A DNA stretch of 64,000 bases from Aggregicoccus sp. 17bor-14 (GTDB taxonomy: Bacteria > Myxococcota > Myxococcia > Myxococcales > Myxococcaceae), in NCBI RefSeq assembly GCF_009659535.1, contig NZ_VJZZ01000002.1, positions 62,001-126,000 of the forward strand, read 5' to 3'. The translations under genes were made by a program, and so were the position numbers. Shown here in pieces: positions 36,237 to 36,977 of the stretch. The notes beneath the pieces are model-generated. The model searched no databases and was not told where the DNA came from. It saw only the letters and a program-made list of their open reading frames with translations. How positions within the stretch are numbered: position 1 is the first letter of the stretch; each line of letters begins with the position of its first letter.

Positions 36237-36299
36237 GGGCGGGCGCTCTAGCCCATTTCCCACCCCGCTGACGAGTCCCTCCCGCAAAGGAGCTGCCCC

Positions 36300-36533
36300 A
36301 TGACCGCCCGAATCACCATCTCCTACTGCAACTCCTGAGGCTACAAGCCCCGGGCCGCCCGTGCGGCGGCCGTACTGAAGGACGCGCTGGACGTGGACGC
36401 AGAGCTGAAGACGGGGCCCTCGGGCTCCTTCGAGGTGTCGGTGGACGGGCGCACCGTGGTGCGCAAGGCCGGCCTCGCCTTCCCCACCGAGCAGGAGGTG
36501 GTGGACGCGGTGGCCCGGGCCCTCGGCCCCTGA
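36300..36533 (+). CDS. SelT/SelW/SelH (Rdx) family selenoprotein with in-frame UGA
   Basis: Read through the TGA at 36336-36338 as selenocysteine, this is a 77-residue protein starting [22 protein letters not shown]. The CxxU redox motif (Cys10, Sec13) directly after the first beta strand and the C-terminal [13 protein letters not shown]...[11 protein letters not shown] match the SelW/Rdx thioredoxin-like family. AAAGGAG (36286-36292) lies 7 bases before ATG 36300. Codon usage after the TGA is typical of the genome, so the frame is coding on both sides. A SECIS-like hairpin lies at 36353-36371. These proteins are thought to act as glutathione- or thiol-dependent redox factors. The Sec-insertion genes (selA-D) are not in this window. 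Confidence 0.88.
36353..36371 (+). promoter_or_regulatory. bacterial SECIS-like hairpin
   Basis: GGCCGCC (36353-36359) and GGCGGCC (36365-36371) form a perfect 7-bp stem with the 5-base loop CGUGC. The loop begins 21 bases after the UGA at 36336-36338, and has a G within its first two bases followed by U, as bacterial SECIS elements require for SelB recognition. It lies inside the coding sequence, as expected. Confidence 0.7.
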
Positions 36534-36641: not shown

Positions 36642-36977
36642 GTGAGCGAAGCCACGGACACGGCAGCCGCACAGCGCAACTGGTGGGAGTCGCCCTTCGA
36701 GCGGCGCTCGGTGCAGCTCAAGATGGGGGTGTGGGCGGAGGACGGGACGCGGCTGGGGTACGTGAGCGCCATGTCGCGCGCCGGGCTCTCGGTGCGCCCG
36801 CACAAGCGCGCGCGGAGCGCGTTCCACATCCCGCTGGAGGCCATCGTGGGGCTCACGGCGGACGGGGTGCGGGTGCGCGGCGCCGCGGGCGGCTACGCGC
36901 TCGGGCCCGAGACGGGTGACCCCGCGGCCGTGAGCGCGCACACGCTGCCGCTCGCCGACACGCTGCTCGCGCACTAG
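36642..36977 (+). CDS. hypothetical protein, PRC-barrel/DUF2171-like
   Basis: A 111-residue soluble protein. GTG 36642 is chosen because AGGAGGT (36629-36635) lies 6 bases upstream, whereas the in-frame TTG at 36621 lacks a binding site. The middle part KMGVWAEDGTRLGYVSAMSR...PLEAIVGLTADGVRVR resembles PRC-barrel/DUF2171 proteins, with a short beta-barrel around the residues before PLEAI. No function can be assigned. It overlaps the convergent DUF4105 gene by 4 bases (CTAG serves both stops). Confidence 0.6.
   Translation: MSEATDTAAAQRNWWESPFERRSVQLKMGVWAEDGTRLGYVSAMSRAGLSVRPHKRARSAFHIPLEAIVGLTADGVRVRGAAGGYALGPETGDPAAVSAHTLPLADTLLAH

Follow-up and report, generated by a model that had tools for sequence, protein, structure and literature searches.

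In bacteria, selenocysteine (Sec) is decoded at UGA codons, to which SECIS-bound SelB delivers Sec-tRNA-Sec. Reports from 2005-2006 describe SelW-like selenoproteins of bacteria in marine metagenomes, Geobacter, Desulfotalea and others (PMC1088965, PMC1794560, PMC1242214), and it was remarked as early as 2006 that Cys homologs of these proteins are scarce or absent in organisms that use Sec (PMC1794560). The related genus Anaeromyxobacter appears in the 2006 list without SelW. A 2026 review lists the bacterial CxxU proteins of PF10262 as "predicted with high confidence" (PMC13188914), and for SelW of C. jejuni full-length translation past the Sec codon has been shown by Ribo-seq in combination with proteomics (PMC11955535). 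Selenoprotein genes with an in-frame TGA tend to be cut short or overlooked by automatic annotation, and the epsilonproteobacterial SelW was indeed missed in this way (PMC4607533). Among openly licensed papers we found none on SelW or its SECIS in Myxococcota, and this absence is no proof.

Here we analyzed a gene of Aggregicoccus sp. 17bor-14 within a window of 64,000 nucleotides, which is the whole stretch of contig NZ_VJZZ01000002.1 under study. An earlier note, made from the letters of the DNA, had read the gene as a SelW/Rdx-type selenoprotein, and our analysis supports this overall reading, with a favorable outcome for each of the computational checks that the note had proposed. Bacterial SelW proteins with Sec were already known as a family. 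On the basis of the sequence comparisons below, the gene is best classified as a myxobacterial member of this family. We have very little doubt that it encodes a SelW-like (Rdx) protein with a thioredoxin fold, in which UGA13 would be translated as Sec by means of a SECIS hairpin and which would act as a small redox enzyme.

The SelW frame and its in-frame TGA

The following features were assigned to the locus:

36288-36292, + strand: Shine-Dalgarno-like AGGAG, 7 nt upstream of the ATG (sequence)
36300-36533, + strand: SelW/Rdx-type selenoprotein gene (predicted), 77 residues plus TGA stop (Pfam Rdx, TIGR02174, AlphaFold model)
36327-36329, + strand: TGC, Cys10, the invariant partner of Sec in CxxU (alignment)
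36336-36338, + strand: in-frame TGA, codon 13, putatively read as selenocysteine (homolog alignment)
36353-36371, + strand: putative SECIS hairpin with a 7-bp stem (36353-36359/36365-36371), loop CGUGC (36360-36364) and G at loop position 2
36531-36533, + strand: terminal TGA stop (homologs end here or at most a few codons away)

The frame of 78 codons given in the earlier note could be reproduced starting from the ATG at 36300, but this number includes the stop codon, and the protein has 77 residues when the TGA at 36336-36338 is taken as an amino acid. The Shine-Dalgarno sequence mentioned there was also found. With Cys at the TGA position, the frame matches Pfam Rdx (PF10262) with 47.5 bits (cut-off 22.6, E 2e-12), and TIGR02174 (CXXU_selWTH) is matched with 45 bits (cut-off 34.2). 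The Rdx match spans the TGA, which corresponds to the second position of the CxxC/CxxU redox motif as had been claimed for CNSU; the motif C10-N-S-U13 follows the first beta strand and both of its columns are invariant in the alignment. NF041051, the SelTWH_Campy equivalog, gives 63.6 bits, which is under the equivalog cut-off of 88, and the window protein is a relative of SelTWH_Campy outside that equivalog.

The AlphaFold model (pLDDT 90.1, pTM 0.79) has a SelW-type thioredoxin-like fold with a strand at residues 5-9 and a helix at residues 16-30, and Cys10 and Sec13 are placed in the loop that connects strand beta1 to helix alpha1. All top 23 PDB matches to the model (E <= 0.001) are SelW/Rdx-family entries, with 3dex as the best match (TM 0.88) and 2fa8, 2oka, 2obk, 2p0g and mouse SelW (2npb) among the others, and the profile comparison also linked the window protein to solved SelW-family chains including 2npb.

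The part downstream of the TGA was described as intact in the earlier note, and the comparison with homologs bears this out. When the window copy was compared with ten others, eight dN/dS values after the TGA were between 0.20 and 0.43, and the remaining two (0.57 and 0.73) belong to the copies of lowest synonymous divergence. Judged from these values, this part is under purifying selection, and its frame is conserved across the phylum.

A conserved operon around the SelW gene was not seen in the flanks of the homologs. A divergent glycosyltransferase gene adjoins just two Corallococcus copies (L054, L055), and a small downstream gene, located at 36642-36977 (+ strand) in the window and without a Pfam match, occurs near SelW in a few relatives (L022/L051, L024, L026). 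With one neighbour present at two copies and the other at a few, the gene neighbourhood was dropped as a clue to the substrate.

Sec machinery and the distribution of Sec and Cys forms

The earlier note had proposed to search the host genome for selA, selB, selC and selD, and all four are present. The host genome (G000; 6.92 Mb in 38 contigs, 99.95% complete, the window being G000:C2:62001-126000) contains selA (567 bits), selB (327 bits) and selD (383 bits), each over its cut-off in the profile search, and a tRNA-Sec with 75.1 bits (gathering cut-off 47), which ARAGORN reports as SeC with anticodon TCA. Furthermore, Sec appears to be used in other proteins of the host as well, because the Sec/Cys codon of selD (L019, G000:C4:375067-375993) is itself an in-frame TGA (RLTELSHCAG-U-AAKL), and each of two formate dehydrogenase (FDH) alpha frames has an in-frame TGA where Sec is expected (NQARI-U-HSSTV):

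G000:C24:69524-70276: FDH alpha chain frame with in-frame TGA (L122)
G000:C7:328641-329393: FDH alpha chain frame with in-frame TGA (L123)

Together with SelW and the selD product, this brings the apparent number of selenoproteins in the host to at least four.

The nearest named records encoding a relative are from Archangium sp. (74% identity), Corallococcus exercitus and a Myxococcaceae MAG, in agreement with a host from the family Myxococcaceae. A SelW match was obtained in 31 of 60 relative genomes, and in 30 of these the match contains one in-frame TGA. In the phylum, 98 of 195 Myxococcota genomes contain the gene, 97 of them with TGA; for the phylum the best 30 candidates per genome were scored and more distant Cys Rdx proteins may have escaped the profile, so the count of Sec versus Cys forms refers to those relatives that our profile detected. 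Within 89 distinct homologs, TGA occupies the same column in 88, every one of these copies having CxxU there, and the remaining homolog (L049 in genome G042) has TGC for Cys. TAA or TAG was found at this column in none of the copies, whereas the terminal stops are mixed (51 TGA, 26 TAG and 12 TAA). Orthologs with a plain stop and no downstream conservation, which the earlier note had named as evidence against its reading, were accordingly not encountered.

The comparison with Cys orthologs that it had also proposed led to G042, a genome that is 98% complete and yielded no SelB or tRNA-Sec match above the cut-off. A TAA at the motif codon of the G042 match was ruled out, as this TAA is the end of the gene. 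In genome G020, a TGA copy is followed just downstream on the same strand by a Cys copy (YCVTC). This tandem (L038, G020:C44:127670-128265) is located in a 4.4-Mb genome of the same family as the host, and it offers a natural comparison for what selenium adds.

In the set of relatives, 27 of the 30 genomes with a TGA-containing SelW yielded selB, and the other three are fragmented or incomplete. SelW without Sec machinery was considered for four TGA genomes that lacked selB at first and was rejected: a looser search yielded selB as a split match in G017, G026 has a selB fragment at the edge of a contig as well as tRNA-Sec, and tRNA-Sec is also present in G031. The incomplete genome G024 (87% complete, 900 contigs) alone remains without a selB or tRNA-Sec match over the cut-off, which is probably a matter of missing data. 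In the opposite direction, 18 of the 29 relatives without a SelW match (e.g., G009, G010, G014 and G016) retain selB, i.e., the gene is absent and Sec use continues.

Across the genomes compared, SelW of Myxococcota seems to be nearly always kept in the Sec form, which in combination with the covarying SECIS described below constitutes a modest novelty. The near-absence of Cys forms in this phylum extends the remark made in 2006 (PMC1794560). We slightly favor the view that SelW in Myxococcota is of old origin and almost obligately a selenoprotein, with the Sec form retained in many families. Loss of the entire gene would then occur more readily than a change to Cys, and the Cys form would arise only upon loss of the Sec machinery or following a tandem duplication as in G020. 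If true, SelW would belong to the small number of Sec proteins in which Cys is insufficient, and this in a group with many aerobic soil bacteria.

The hairpin downstream of the UGA and alternative readings

The earlier note had also pointed to a perfect 7-bp hairpin whose loop CGUGC begins 21 nt after the UGA. This geometry is correct: the hairpin GGCCGCC-CGUGC-GGCGGCC starts 14 nt after the UGA, and with the U of UGA as position 1, nucleotides 18-24 pair with 30-36 and the loop comprises 25-29. With 7 bp, a 5-nt loop containing G, a distance of 21 nt from UGA to loop and -16.1 kcal/mol, it fits the published bacterial SECIS model, from which the constraints were taken (PMC13188914). As an argument on its own, a 7-bp hairpin in GC-rich DNA is weak evidence. 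A hairpin of this type with at least 7 bp follows 10.7% of the 961 TGA triplets in the window, and in comparison to synonymous recoding the folding energy of the window hairpin is unremarkable (p = 0.15; 9 of 88 copies are below p 0.05).

The claim gains its strength from covariation. Using 45 representatives with less than 80% nucleotide identity (43 Myxococcota and the two Acetobacteraceae sequences L056 and L057), we analyzed pairing in a fixed register at the three pairs that join one third codon position to another (18-36, 21-33 and 24-30). 124 of 135 such wobble-to-wobble pairs form, whereas 58.7±5.8 are expected by synonymous recoding and the maximum in 2000 draws was 78. Compensatory changes between G-C, A-U and C-G that affect both sides occur in five of the seven hairpin pairs, and fewer pairs form when the register is shifted by 1-3 nt (71-206 versus 281). 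The stems differ in deep lineages and yet pair, as in GGCCAGC/GCAGGCC (one mismatch), GGCCGCA/UGCGGCC, GGCUUCC/GGAAGCU and GGCGGCG/CGCCGCC. The G at nucleotide 26 (loop position 2) is present in 43 of 43 Myxococcota representatives, the exceptions being L056 and L057, and it is followed by U or, in some lineages, by G, both of which are allowed by the model. Within one genus (L032, L040, L043) the loop alternates between CGUGC and CGGGC, so the base after the conserved G is variable. We regard the covariation in these alignments as the decisive evidence for the hairpin.

L056 and L057, from a Rhodopila MAG and Acidisphaera, encode SelW with an in-frame TGA (CGM-U). Because neither has a hairpin in the myxobacterial register, their SECIS must be located elsewhere or be different.

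Three other explanations of the locus have to be weighed. If the TGA were an ordinary stop, the gene would be a pseudogene or encode a 12-residue peptide, and the similarity downstream would be a relic. TGA does serve as a true stop at other sites of these genomes, but a relic is difficult to reconcile with a downstream frame that is conserved across the phylum at dN/dS below 1, with a codon that never changes to TAA or TAG although terminal stops do, and with a Cys substitution in a genome in which SelB and tRNA-Sec gave no match above the cut-off (G042); we consider the probability of this explanation to be negligible. A programmed readthrough of the UGA with another amino acid, e.g., Trp by near-cognate decoding, would dispense with Sec, and low-level UGA readthrough does occur in bacteria. 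The position is, however, that of the redox-active Cys/Sec in CxxC/CxxU, with Cys as the sole alternative observed, and the UGA is followed by a covarying hairpin of SECIS type in a host with the full Sec machinery, so that we give readthrough practically no credence.

The remaining explanation accepts the selenoprotein and holds that the hairpin at 36353-36371 is not a SECIS, its pairing being a side effect of GC-rich DNA with many codons for Ala and Arg. The inconspicuous folding energy and the similar hairpins after one in nine TGAs would be in line with this. Yet such a side effect is not expected to yield twice the number of wobble pairs predicted from synonymous recoding, nor different stems with compensatory changes in deep lineages such as L129, L131, L134, L140 and L050, and the hairpin codons of the window copy show no synonymous changes relative to its relatives in eight of ten comparisons; it therefore seems extremely improbable. 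Taken together, the Rdx match across the TGA, the TGA in the same column of 88 of 89 homologs and the covariation are beyond chance, and codon 13 is almost certainly read as selenocysteine. The locus adds a well-supported selenoprotein to the myxobacteria.

Proposed mechanism and comparison with known SelW proteins

Frame, motif, family, fold prediction, Sec machinery and the conserved covarying hairpin are established at the sequence level, and from these we infer Sec insertion and the redox chemistry as follows. When the ribosome arrives at the UGA of codon 13, the stem-loop 14 nt past this codon would recruit SelB with selenocysteyl-tRNA-Sec, and Sec would be inserted in place of termination, which would generate a C-x-x-U redox site between beta1 and alpha1. 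Because of its motif and family, the product is most likely a small cytosolic thiol/selenol oxidoreductase. In such an enzyme, Sec13 would attack the oxidised substrate and Cys10 would resolve the intermediate as a selenenylsulfide.

In terms of structure, the bacterial Rdx proteins 3dex, 2fa8, 2oka, 2obk and 2p0g, which we take to be Cys forms and not selenoproteins, share the fold with our model (TM 0.75-0.88), but they are 21-34% identical to the window protein, which has UGA at the second motif position. Mouse SelW (2npb) and MIEN1/C17orf37 (2ljk) also resemble it in fold and in the position of the redox motif, with 25-29% identity over the fold alignment. In eukaryotic SelW the SECIS is located in the 3'-UTR.

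Among the bacterial selenoproteins, SelW of Campylobacter jejuni, encoded on CJnc60 (80-81 aa; PMC4607533, PMC11955535), belongs to the same family and has a UGA-coded Sec. It represents the epsilonproteobacterial equivalog, whereas the myxobacterial SECIS is GC-rich and has stem sequences of its own. The SelW-like proteins known from Geobacter sulfurreducens, Desulfotalea psychrophila, Symbiobacterium and metagenomes of marine origin are similar to the protein described here in the Rdx domain, the CxxU motif, the downstream SECIS-type hairpin and the small size (PMC1794560, PMC1088965, PMC13188914). The Geobacter, Desulfotalea and Symbiobacterium proteins belong to other phyla, whereas in Myxococcota the Sec form appears to be almost exclusive.
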